Shown: piece after piece, positions 26,122 to 56,005 of the stretch | Position numbering within the stretch: position 1 is the first letter of the stretch | Layout: every line of letters begins with the position of its first letter | Source of the DNA: Collimonas sp. OK242 | Lineage (GTDB): Bacteria > Pseudomonadota > Gammaproteobacteria > Burkholderiales > Burkholderiaceae_D | Direction of reading: 5' to 3' | DNA: 64,000 bases | NCBI RefSeq assembly: GCF_900107095.1 | Contig: NZ_FNOR01000017.1 | Coordinates: forward strand, 1-64,000 | Made by a program: the position numbers and the translations under genes | The notes under the pieces: generated by a model | The model's database searches: none | The model's input: the letters and a program-made list of their open reading frames with translations, nothing else | Told to the model about the DNA's origin: nothing

Positions 26122-26190
26122 CAAAAAAAAACCCGCCTGACCTTGCGGTAGCGGGTTGAATCCAAACCTTAGGAGGTGTTGGAGGAGACA
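26122..26190 (-). ncRNA. Candidate 70-nt sRNA with anti-Shine-Dalgarno block and intrinsic terminator (element A)
   Basis: Minus-strand element. The 5' block TGTCTCCTCCAACACCTCC (from 26190) is followed by TAAGGTTTGGATT and a terminator: stem AACCCGC / GCGGGTT with an inner ACC-GCAA-GGT stem, then nine T. A -10-like TATAGT lies exactly 6 nt upstream of TGTCTC (CAGACA 17 nt further up), placing the RNA start at the block. CACCTCCT equals the 16S rRNA anti-Shine-Dalgarno core. The same architecture recurs at 51938-52007. It lies 87 nt past the lrp stop codon. No homology search was run. Confidence 0.65.
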
Positions 26191-34166: not shown

Positions 34167-35171
34167 TCAATGCACGCCGATGTATCCCAGCCCGGCGGCA
34201 AACAGCAAGTACAACAAGCCGAAGACAGCCAGACGGCCAGCGCTCAACATGCCCTTGCGCAGCAGCGTATACAAGCCGAACATCGACATCATCGTCACCG
34301 CCGCGGCCCAGATCAGCGGCGGACCCAGCATCCATGGCGTAAAGATCAATACCAGCGCGGTCGGGATAGTCGCCTGGATCATCATGGCGCCGCTGATATT
34401 GCTCAGGGCCAGGCTTTGCTTGCCCTGCTTCACCCAGATCACCGCGTTCAGGATCTCCGGCAACTCGGTAGCGATCGGGCTGAGCAAGAGCGCGGCCAAT
34501 TGCGGCGAGATACCCAGCCAAGGTGCGATGTCCCCCAGCTGATGCACGAACAACTGGGAACCCAGGAAAATCACCACCAGCGCCACCAAGGTTTGCAGCA
34601 AAGCCCAGCCAATTCCCGGCTGCGGATCGTGCGGCCGGAATTTCAAAGGCTCCAGATCATTCACTTCGGCATCGGCATCTTCTTCCTTGCGCATTTCGCC
34701 CCAGATATACACACCGTAGGCCAGCAGGAAAAGCACACCCAGCCAAGGCTTAATGGCAAACGCCACCAGGCCGAGGCCGACCTTGACCACAAAAATACCG
34801 ATGAACCAGGCTTGGTCCCGGCGCAGCCGTTGCGCAGCGCTGGCTGACAGCAGGACGGTAGCGAGTTTTTTACGATTCAGGATGAACATAAGGCCGACCA
34901 CCGCGTAGGCGATCGTCGCCAGCACCAGCGGCCCGCCGAGCGCAGCGCCGACGCCGATTTCCCGGTGTGCCGCATCGCGCCCGAACACCACGGCGACAAA
35001 AGTCACCACGCTTTCCGGCAACGCCGTACCAAACGCTGCCAGCACCGTGCCCACGGCGCTTTGCGCAATGCCCAGCCGGCGCCCGACCCATTCGATGCTA
35101 TTGACGAAATATTCACAGGACAGATAAATCACCACGGCTGCGCCGAGCAGCAGAGCAACGCTGAGCATCAT
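34167..35171 (-). CDS. CaCA-family cation exchanger (Ca/Na or Mn exporter)
   Basis: 334-residue inner-membrane exchanger of the YrbG/CaCA type with ten predicted helices in two homologous halves. The alpha repeats are GTVLAAFGTALPESVVTF and LLSPIATELPEILNAVIW, the acidic residues of which bind the cation. Relatives are annotated as calcium/sodium antiporters. Here the leader carries a Mn-sensing riboswitch (35360-35480), so a role in manganese or calcium efflux is favoured. GGGAG precedes the ATG at 35171, with a second ATG directly after it. No partner gene is visible. Confidence 0.88.
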   Translation of the reverse strand: MMLSVALLLGAAVVIYLSCEYFVNSIEWVGRRLGIAQSAVGTVLAAFGTALPESVVTFVAVVFGRDAAHREIGVGAALGGPLVLATIAYAVVGLMFILNRKKLATVLLSASAAQRLRRDQAWFIGIFVVKVGLGLVAFAIKPWLGVLFLLAYGVYIWGEMRKEEDADAEVNDLEPLKFRPHDPQPGIGWALLQTLVALVVIFLGSQLFVHQLGDIAPWLGISPQLAALLLSPIATELPEILNAVIWVKQGKQSLALSNISGAMMIQATIPTALVLIFTPWMLGPPLIWAAAVTMMSMFGLYTLLRKGMLSAGRLAVFGLLYLLFAAGLGYIGVH

Positions 35172-35310
35172 GCGCGTGCTCCCGCCTGATCAATCAGGGC
35201 TGCGGATGACGCAGGTGAAAAAGATGACACGAAGGGTAGTTCAGTGAAGCTGGCGGCGGCAGAACACTGAGGCTGCCATTGGCGGTAAATAAGCATGAGG
35301 AAATCCTGAG
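35172..35310. other. Riboswitch-distal leader of the exchanger gene
   Basis: About 140 bases between the downstream hairpin and the start codon; no gene. A small hairpin CCTGAT-TG-ATCAGG lies directly upstream of the GGGAG ribosome site and could sequester it. Confidence 0.4.
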
Positions 35311-35350
35311 GGCCGGGCACTGACGAATGGCGCAACACCTTCGCCCGGCC
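35311..35350 (-). promoter_or_regulatory. Hairpin downstream of the riboswitch aptamer
   Basis: Eight-base perfect arms GGCCGGGC (35311-35318) / GCCCGGCC (35343-35350) in the leader, about 20 nt after the aptamer. It may be part of the expression platform that couples ligand binding to transcription or translation. Confidence 0.45.
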
Positions 35351-35359
35351 GGGTAAAGG

Positions 35360-35480
35360 GAAGCACCATAGGTCTTGCCAAACCGTGCGGTCGCGCATGC
35401 CATGGCGTAAATTTGGTACAGCGCCAAGTATGTTGACATGCGCTCTTCGAAAGAAACGAAGGCGGCTACTCCCCTAAGGA
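35360..35480 (-). promoter_or_regulatory. yybP-ykoY (manganese) riboswitch upstream of the cation exchanger
   Basis: On the minus strand the order of conserved blocks is that of the yybP-ykoY class: GGGGAGTAGC (35465-35474), a CGAAGxxxCTTCG-like hairpin region, GTCAACATACTTGG (35424-35437), then GGCAAGACC (35371-35379) and a closing segment GCTTCCC. Members of this class bind Mn(II) and raise expression of Mn efflux or TerC-like proteins. It lies about 190 nt ahead of the CaCA exchanger start codon. The exact ends are uncertain. Confidence 0.8.
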
Positions 35481-54612: not shown

Positions 54613-55680
54613 TCAGGCCGGGCTGCTATTGAGCAAACGGCGTTGTTTTACTGCCGCCGCCAAACCTTCCAGCACCGCCACGCTTTCTTCCCAGTTGATG
54701 CAACCGTCGGTCACCGATTGGCCGTAGACCAGTTCTTTGCCCGGCACCAGATCCTGGCGGCCGGCGACCAGGTGCGACTCCACCATGACGCCCACGATGC
54801 GATCGTCGCCGGCGGCGATCTGCTTGCCGATATCGGCGCATACCGGGATTTGATTTTCCGGCTTCTTCGAACTGTTGGCGTGCGACGCATCGATCATCAG
54901 GCGCGATGCCAGTCCGCTGTTGGCGATATCCTTGCAAGCCGCATCGACACTGGCAGCGTCATAGTTCGGCGCCTTGCCGCCGCGCAGAATGATATGGCAA
55001 TCTTCATTGCCATTAGTCGACACAATCGCCGAGTGGCCGCCCTTGGTCACCGACAAGAAATGATGCGGCTGCGAAGCTGCCTTGATGGCATCCACCGCAA
55101 TCTTGATATTGCCGTCGGTGCCGTTCTTGAAACCGACCGGGCATGACAAGCCGGAAGCCAGTTCGCGATGCACCTGCGATTCGGTAGTGCGGGCGCCGAT
55201 TGCGCCCCAGCTGATCAGGTCGGCAATGTATTGCGGGCTGATCACATCCAGGAATTCGGTGCCGGCCGGCAAGCCCAGCTGGTTAATGTTCAACAACAGC
55301 TCGCGCGCCATGCGCAAACCGTCGTTGATGCGGAAGCTGTTGTCCATGTACGGATCGTTGATCAAACCTTTCCAGCCGACCGTGGTGCGCGGCTTTTCGA
55401 AGTAGACCCGCATCACGATTTCCAGCTCGCCCTTGAAGCGCTCGCGCTCGCCCGCCAGACGGCCCGCATATTCCAGCGCCGCCTTGGTGTCGTGGATCGA
55501 GCACGGTCCGATCACCACCATCAGGCGGTCATCCTGGCCATGCAAAATGCGATGCAGCGCAATCCGCGAATTGGCGGCGGTTTCCGCCACTTTCTCGGAG
55601 CAGCCGAATTCGCGTATCAAATGGGATGGCGGGACTAGTTCTTTCATTTCTCGTATGCGCAAATCATCGGTGCGTAGCAT
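54613..55680 (-). CDS. aroG: 3-deoxy-7-phosphoheptulonate (DAHP) synthase, class I
   Basis: 355-residue enzyme starting the shikimate pathway: phosphoenolpyruvate plus erythrose 4-phosphate to DAHP. Family blocks: VVIGPCSIHDTKAALEYA, RVYFEKPRTTVGWKGL, GARTTESQVHRELASGLSCPVGFKNGT and MIDASHANSSKKPENQ. E. coli has Phe-, Tyr- and Trp-inhibited versions (AroG/F/H); the leader peptide suggests Phe/Tyr-linked control here. The start at 55680 follows AGGAGAAAAAC. Confidence 0.96.
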   Translation of the reverse strand: MLRTDDLRIREMKELVPPSHLIREFGCSEKVAETAANSRIALHRILHGQDDRLMVVIGPCSIHDTKAALEYAGRLAGERERFKGELEIVMRVYFEKPRTTVGWKGLINDPYMDNSFRINDGLRMARELLLNINQLGLPAGTEFLDVISPQYIADLISWGAIGARTTESQVHRELASGLSCPVGFKNGTDGNIKIAVDAIKAASQPHHFLSVTKGGHSAIVSTNGNEDCHIILRGGKAPNYDAASVDAACKDIANSGLASRLMIDASHANSSKKPENQIPVCADIGKQIAAGDDRIVGVMVESHLVAGRQDLVPGKELVYGQSVTDGCINWEESVAVLEGLAAAVKQRRLLNSSPA

Positions 55681-55712: not shown

Positions 55713-55741
55713 AAAAAAACCGCCATCGCTGGCGGTTTTTT
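55713..55741 (-). terminator. Attenuator terminator in the aroG leader
   Basis: Strong hairpin CCGCCA (55720-55725) / TGGCGG (55730-55735) flanked by A/T runs, so on the minus strand it ends in TTTTTTT. It lies between the leader peptide stop and aroG. GGCGGT within the end of the leader peptide (55787-55792) can pair with the ACCGCC arm, giving an alternative antiterminator. Confidence 0.75.
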
Positions 55742-55764
55742 AGAAATTTCGGTTTGCTCTTTAC

Positions 55765-55845
55765 TTACGAACGCTTACCGCTTTTCACCGCCGTGGGGCT
55801 GGAATAGCTAAAGTAAAAAAAGAAATAAGCGCGTGCGAAAGACAT
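55765..55845 (-). CDS. Phe/Tyr-rich leader peptide of aroG
   Basis: 26-codon frame (ATG at 55845, TAA at 55765). It contains YFFFYFSY: five Phe and three Tyr in the first 14 residues, far above random. Stalling at these codons when charged Phe- or Tyr-tRNA is scarce would leave the downstream antiterminator free, as in pheA and tyr-type leaders. There is no strong Shine-Dalgarno; a candidate promoter TTGCCA-N17-CACTAT lies upstream. The 84-nt spacer to aroG contains the terminator. Confidence 0.7.
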   Translation of the reverse strand: MSFARAYFFFYFSYSSPTAVKSGKRS

Positions 55846-56005
55846 GTTTTTCAGTAAAGGATTATTAAAATCAAGACCAATAGTGCAGGATTTCCGGCGA
55901 TTTGGCAAGGCCCGTATTACCACATTATTTATATACAACAAGACAATGCCGGCCCGCCAAGGCCAGAAGCCCGGCACCTTGCCGAAGGCGAAAGCCCCCA
56001 TTTAA

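Follow-up and report, generated by a model that had tools for sequence, protein, structure and literature searches.

Results

An aromatic-rich leader lies immediately upstream of aroG

In the soil bacterium Collimonas sp. OK242 we analyzed a 64-kb stretch of DNA (64,000 nt), hereafter the window, in which aroG is preceded on its own strand by a promoter-like site, a short ORF rich in aromatic codons, a GGCGG sequence within the tail of this ORF, and an intrinsic terminator, in that order (Table 1). The aroG product belongs with the type I DAHP synthases (AroG/AroF/AroH), passing both NF006723 (593.6 bits versus a cut-off of 568) and TIGR00034 (541.4 versus 173.2). Since the genome contains only two PF00793 genes, aroG and a KDO-8-phosphate synthase, and yielded zero matches for a type II DAHP synthase, aroG is the only DAHP synthase gene that these searches find. 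The next gene upstream, which encodes a SorC-like regulator, has the same orientation, and its end is 160 nt away from the leader.

Table 1. Coordinates of aroG and of the elements of its leader in the window
Feature	Position	Strand	Basis or remark
-35-like hexamer TTGCCA, putative leader promoter	55903..55908	-	Best-scoring site, compared across loci
-10-like hexamer ACTATT with TG extension	55879..55884	-	Spacer to TTGCCA of 18 nt
Leader peptide ORF, 26 codons, MSFARAYFFFYFSYSSPTAVKSGKRS*	55765..55845	-	ORF reading; aromatic-rich ORF in 78/80 (best 80 of 587 AroG loci)
Control codons Tyr-Phe-Phe-Phe-Tyr-Phe-Ser-Tyr	55804..55827	-	ORF translation, codon comparison
Predicted protector (1:2) hairpin in which part of GGCGG is paired	55780..55808	-	RNAalifold, 5 VKSGKRS-class leaders
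Region 2, GGCGG, antiterminator 5' strand in ORF tail	55788..55792	-	Alignment, folding, covariation
Region 3, CCGCC, common to antiterminator and terminator	55731..55735	-	Alignment, covariation
Intrinsic terminator: stem 55741-55714, 12/12 pairs, loop GCGA, T run 55719-55713	55713..55741	-	Sequence reading, scripts
aroG, 3-deoxy-7-phosphoheptulonate (DAHP) synthase	54613..55680	-	NCBIfam

The first-pass annotation of this DNA had described a 26-residue aromatic frame ending 84 nt before aroG, a strong terminator with a T run after it, and a GGCGGT sequence in the 3' codons of the peptide that can pair with an ACCGCC terminator arm. Each of these elements is present where it was placed: the frame ends at that distance from the aroG ATG at 55680, the terminator has a perfect 12-bp stem, and GGCGGT begins at 55792, within the Pro-Thr-Ala-Val codons, its pairing being kept among relatives with one covarying position beside the core. 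The distance from the end of the terminator to the aroG ATG is 33 nt, and its hairpin does not overlap the CAGGAG before aroG. It was missed by a simple terminator scan of the window and detected by dedicated scripts.

When the best-scoring promoter-like site per locus was compared in a selection of 31 loci, the -35-like hexamer was TTGCCA in 24 and TTGTCA, TTGCGA, TTGCAA or TTGCAT in the other 7. The -10-like match is weak in Collimonas sp. OK242 and stronger in many of these selected loci, TATAGT being present in many relatives, and the distance from its end to the leader ATG ranges from 23 to 65 nt among the 31.

Elsewhere in the window, an Rfam Mn2+ riboswitch (RF00080, 58.2 bits) was found at 35308-35479 on the minus strand, upstream of an ORF (34167-35171) that matches calcium/sodium antiporter models below their cut-offs, as well as a Betaproteobacteria toxic sRNA (RF02278, 53.1 bits) at 26123-26190, also on the minus strand.

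The leader stays with aroG across much of the order

Relatives were drawn from the best 80 of 587 confirmed AroG loci, the titles of which are mostly Oxalobacteraceae and Burkholderiaceae, with Collimonas sp. OK607 as the nearest (98%). Among these best 80, an aromatic-rich ORF precedes aroG in 78, and both ORF and terminator are present in 77. Two main peptide forms recur and can be aligned in both position and layout: ...FYFYFSYSSPxAVE(KR) and a second one, MSAKFYFYFFWxLRPLADREG, which is that of Burkholderia, Caballeronia, and Paraburkholderia. In Collimonas sp. OK242, one base is missing after GGCGGT, which sets its VKSGKRS ending apart from the common AVEKR ending.

Across the GTDB order, 49 of 109 aroG upstream regions have a leader (38 with the strict anatomy and 11 judged by eye) and 60 were read as having none. 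This proportion is to be read with the sampling in mind, as 30 of the 109 regions, including that of the window's genome, had been pre-chosen by covariance model R1 and all 30 are within the 49; among the 79 regions picked by AroG alone, 19 have a leader. By family, the leader was found in 14 of the 29 read and in none of the remaining 15. The order sample comprised AroG matches down to about E 1e-149 at roughly one per genus, which places families with a more distant AroG outside of it. The retention of Phe and Tyr codons in relatives, which the first-pass annotation had offered as the check on its reading, is thus borne out in 78 of the best 80 of 587 loci and in 49 of 109 regions across the order, while other parts of the peptide vary. 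Outside the order, the layout was found in 2 of 40 regions (L200 and L207), both from one family (f59), for which transfer together with aroG and an older origin are both possible.

Several loci depart from this pattern. The leader is absent at 2 of the best 80 of 587 AroG loci (L012 and L055); at L012 and L120, which are probably one genome, and at L055, aroG lies shortly after a tldD-like gene, that of L012 being TldD. In another genome (G123, locus L189), a terminator lies about 130-110 nt before aroG and no aromatic ORF was seen, while its genus-mates L186 and L247 have weak leaders; L189 is possibly a decaying attenuator. In Candidatus Burkholderia humilis (L057), a frameshift follows the aromatic run and the frame continues through the stretch encoding the terminator, so this locus may be a natural variant that has lost attenuation.

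The anatomy of the leader is not readily produced by chance. A count over both strands of the window gave 6 short ORFs with 5 or more aromatic residues in a stretch of 8; among these, the aroG leader alone has a terminator within the 190 nt searched downstream. The strict anatomy, which was present in 38 of the 109 upstream regions of the order (26 of the 30 chosen by the RNA model and 12 of the 79 chosen by AroG), was found in 0 of 1,090 dinucleotide-shuffled upstream regions and in 0 of 109 reverse complements.

These comparisons bear upon the possibility that the hairpin serves only to terminate the upstream SorC-like gene at its 3' end, the aromatic ORF being a chance frame. The upstream gene does have the orientation and proximity that such an arrangement calls for, and T-rich DNA naturally encodes Phe. 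However, that gene and the leader are separated by a promoter-like site, and the leader stays with aroG regardless of what precedes it: in the best 80 of 587 AroG loci, the upstream gene is tldD in 56 and not in 24, and the regulator of the window is found in none. Together with the absence of the anatomy from the shuffled sequences and the pattern of third-position variation described below, this makes such a coincidence very unlikely.

The aromatic run and the tail of the leader appear to be constrained differently

We collected 121 leaders, of which three (L094, L095, and L122) were missed by the anchor patterns and dropped, leaving 118; L057 was left out because a terminator was not detected downstream of the late stop of its shifted frame. 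The 118 were selected by three features, namely an ORF rich in aromatic codons, a terminator, and either GGCGG or GGCGA, and the presence of these among them is therefore not independent evidence. Leaders picked in this way as aromatic-rich have from 3 to 11 aromatic codons before GGCGG (median 7). All have at least 2 Phe codons, 117 have Tyr, 46 have Trp, and 45 have all three.

In 38 disjoint nearest leader pairs, formed independently of any peptide motif, the aromatic codons (n = 275) differ at positions 1, 2, and 3 in 20, 18, and 39 cases, versus 23, 22, and 30 for the non-aromatic codons before GGCGG (n = 283) and 30, 30, and 50 for the whole run region. In aromatic codons, position 3 therefore varies at about double the rate of position 1 or 2. 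Of the 59 changed aromatic codons, 32 stay aromatic (25 synonymous and 7 aromatic to aromatic) and 27 involve an exchange with a non-aromatic residue (Tyr/His in 12), which indicates that single codons are replaceable. By this pattern of substitution, the run is constrained as codons to a moderate degree. The third-position excess likewise speaks for translation of the ORF, yet, as read by eye, there is no clear Shine-Dalgarno sequence before the leader ATG in Collimonas sp. OK242. Two further measures were set aside: codon-position variation of 0, 0, and 0.198 among 21 Burkholderia-type leaders is circular, as that group was picked by a peptide motif that fixes positions 1 and 2, and a frame-0 excess of aromatic codons is a product of the leader selection.

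The tail of the ORF behaves otherwise. GGCGG occurs in all three reading frames (frames 2, 0, and 1 in 103, 8, and 7 of the 118 leaders), because small indels between the run and the tail alter the peptide and spare the RNA, and this distribution argues that the tail is constrained as RNA. Such indels are visible in the alignment for L006, L042, L044, and L074. Through such natural frameshifts, a single alignment distinguishes constraint on codons from constraint on the RNA.

A short segment after the aromatic run, AGCNATTCCA (within 55766-55845 of the window and in relatives), hardly varies among 47 leaders, even at wobble bases, and the fixed Ser wobble bases of the leaders with a YFSxS motif likewise point to constraint on the RNA. 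The segment is compatible with a place in the 5' arm of the predicted 1:2 hairpin, and a second role is also possible.

One might suppose instead that the conserved RNA is a metabolite riboswitch or a protein-controlled terminator, with a ligand or regulator acting upon the RNA and the short ORF being incidental. Such a device would be consistent with RNA conservation and a terminator in front of a biosynthetic gene, and with the fixed wobble bases of the Ser codons, which are always AGC and TCC in the leaders with a YFSxS motif (n = 47). Against this, 1) no Rfam family reaches its gathering score on the leader, in the window or in 10 loci, 2) what is conserved consists of end-product codons and one GGCGG/CCGCC/GGCGG triple, with no other large conserved core, and 3) the peptides diverge between families while their aromatic content stays. 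We regard this explanation as highly improbable.

Folding predicts a kinetic switch

In folding calculations that employed an assumed ribosome footprint, a ribosome stalled at the last aromatic codon would cover part of GGCGG in 13 of 118 leaders. In the 105 leaders with GGCGG free, the GGCGG:CCGCC pairing had a predicted probability of at least 0.5 in all 105 when arm 4 of the terminator was still unmade. In this stalled state, CCGCC was paired at 0.9 or above in 105 of 118 real leaders, compared with 166 of 1,180 having a shuffled middle segment, even though shuffled middles still pair CCGCC with something (median 0.70). With arm 4 present, the terminator was favored at equilibrium in 114 of 118 leaders, even with the ribosome stalled, so the switch would have to be kinetic. 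Classical attenuators likewise switch kinetically.

The remaining states were predicted less cleanly. With the ribosome at the stop codon, CCGCC was paired below 0.5 in 112 of 118 leaders, partly because all upstream RNA was left out of the fold. In Collimonas sp. OK242, the stop codon of the leader begins 25 nt downstream of the first base of GGCGG, and a terminating ribosome may consequently not mask region 2. Without a ribosome, where the protector hairpin should prevail, the antiterminator (2:3) was predicted at 0.5 or above in 49 of 118. A 1:2 hairpin that pairs part of GGCGG was predicted by RNAalifold in four leader classes.

Covariation was tested on the 81 distinct leaders of the 118 with 5,000 permutations that ignore kinship. 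The pair beside the 2:3 core is Watson-Crick (T-A, C-G, or A-T) in 38 of 81 leaders versus 22.4 expected, a count that 0 of 5,000 permutations reached. At the other four extension positions, 708, 167, 914, and 3,317 of 5,000 permutations were as high, meaning that one position of the five covaries clearly. To the leader elements and their conservation, which are observed, folding thus adds a predicted switch, in that a stalled ribosome would, as far as folding goes, allow an antiterminator mutually exclusive with the terminator.

A covariance model locates the leader before DAHP synthase genes

Of 250 genomes from the order, 55 were matched by covariance model R1, which was built from 55 leaders; some of the matched genomes are sources of the model leaders or their close kin. 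In the Collimonas sp. OK242 genome, the top match scored 125 bits and the next 28.2 bits. Just upstream of a DAHP synthase gene and on the same strand lie 51 of the 55 matches, as determined by tblastn (30/30), by coordinates (19), and by tblastn on fetched DNA (2). The other four, none of them before a DAHP synthase gene, were rejected: two are ordinary terminators (G169 and G198), one matches the terminator part only (G142), and the fourth (G096) precedes an ORF that resembles MraZ.

Discussion

The current study describes a leader upstream of aroG that is very likely a ribosome-mediated transcription attenuator. This is the interpretation proposed by the first-pass annotation, and it gains support from the retention of both the aromatic ORF and the antiterminator in relatives. 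It has an evident limit as well, as about half of the families of the order that were read are without the leader. Promoter use, leader translation, ribosome stalling, and termination would all follow the pheA/trp paradigm, from which we infer them. RNA polymerase would start just upstream, yielding a leader of about 160 nt. With Phe- and Tyr-tRNA charged in good supply, the ribosome would pass the aromatic run and disturb region 2, and the nascent RNA would fold into the CCGCC/GGCGG terminator ahead of aroG. When either tRNA is scarce, the ribosome would presumably stall within the aromatic run, GGCGG would stay unmasked and pair with CCGCC ahead of the synthesis of the second terminator arm, and the polymerase could read into aroG. 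That the peptide instead controls aroG translation or mRNA stability is extremely unlikely, for although translation effects could run in parallel, the hairpin and its T run are those of a textbook intrinsic terminator, one that ends short of the aroG ATG and is clear of CAGGAG.

Several known systems offer parallels. The E. coli trpL leader and the multivalent ilvGMEDA leader, the latter having control codons for more than one amino acid, both act through ribosome-mediated attenuation, but they serve different genes and amino acids. According to one source (PMC11802643), pheA, pheST, and the trp operon are all attenuated in E. coli, and the pheL-pheA attenuator (Rfam Phe_leader, RF01859) shares with our leader a Phe-rich peptide and the attenuation of an aromatic-pathway gene via Phe-tRNA. 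In contrast, the Collimonas leader precedes a DAHP synthase gene rather than pheA, and the run mixes Phe with Tyr and, in the family, often Trp. Membership in RF01859 was considered and rejected: with 30.5 bits (E 0.0035 on 501 bases) versus a gathering score of 55, the leader is not a member by that test, and the gathering score was reached at none of 10 loci, the window's own among them. Likewise, 0 NCBIfam/Pfam families matched each of 5 leader peptides, these being very short queries that give such a search low power.

The closest functional precedent is the AroR leader of C. glutamicum aroF, reportedly described by Neshat et al. in 2014. As presented in the same source (PMC11802643), a Phe-Tyr-Phe leader precedes the DAHP synthase gene of the aroF operon, and expression increases under Phe limitation. 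However, C. glutamicum is an actinobacterium, the two leaders are likened by description and not by sequence, and Tyr supply is said there to be without effect (PMC11802643), whereas nearly all leaders of our set carry Tyr codons. Attenuation of a DAHP synthase gene therefore has a precedent, which limits how notable the arrangement is relative to what the first-pass annotation had claimed. The uORFC-13-1 motif of Acholeplasma aroF is also similar in that a Phe-coding uORF and a terminator are predicted before a DAHP synthase gene (PMC8632094); it comes from a distant lineage, has 24 representatives, is a prediction only, and is specified by "at least one" Phe, in contrast to the long run of mixed aromatic codons seen here (PMC8632094).

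Among the accessible portions of the broader surveys, a study of Proteobacteria regulons names RNA-level control for trpEDCBA and pheA (PMC5343134), a survey of premature terminators does not name aroG in the portion available (PMC2965389), and a database of putative attenuators is cited in PMC1173090. Judging by titles and abstract openings among the matches listed, we found no description of this aroG leader in Betaproteobacteria, and an earlier sighting is possible in a table of short 5' UTRs from B. cenocepacia (PMC5688073). Hence, among the sources consulted, the mechanism is known and the gene class has precedents, and no description was found of this widespread family with its mixed aromatic run.

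A more ambitious reading, which we consider rather unlikely as a whole, would join these observations. Under this reading, the leaders are one old RNA family of the GTDB order, through which a single DAHP synthase responds jointly to how fully Phe- and Tyr-tRNA, and in many lineages also Trp-tRNA, are charged, one multivalent leader thereby standing in place of the three isozymes and two repressors of E. coli. The terminated leader RNA, with its sequence-conserved tail, might also act in trans. Action in trans is reported for the trp leader peptide of Sinorhizobium (PMC7298713).

Given that no Rfam family matched at its gathering score (window and 10 loci) and that the peptides matched no NCBIfam/Pfam family (5 peptides), the leader could be a useful addition to annotation pipelines. 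Its distribution suggests that attenuation of the shikimate entry enzyme is widespread and not a peculiarity of Corynebacterium. Ribosome-mediated attenuation of aroG, as proposed here, provides a testable answer to how bacteria of this order with only one DAHP synthase could adjust the amount of that enzyme to the supply of aromatic amino acids.
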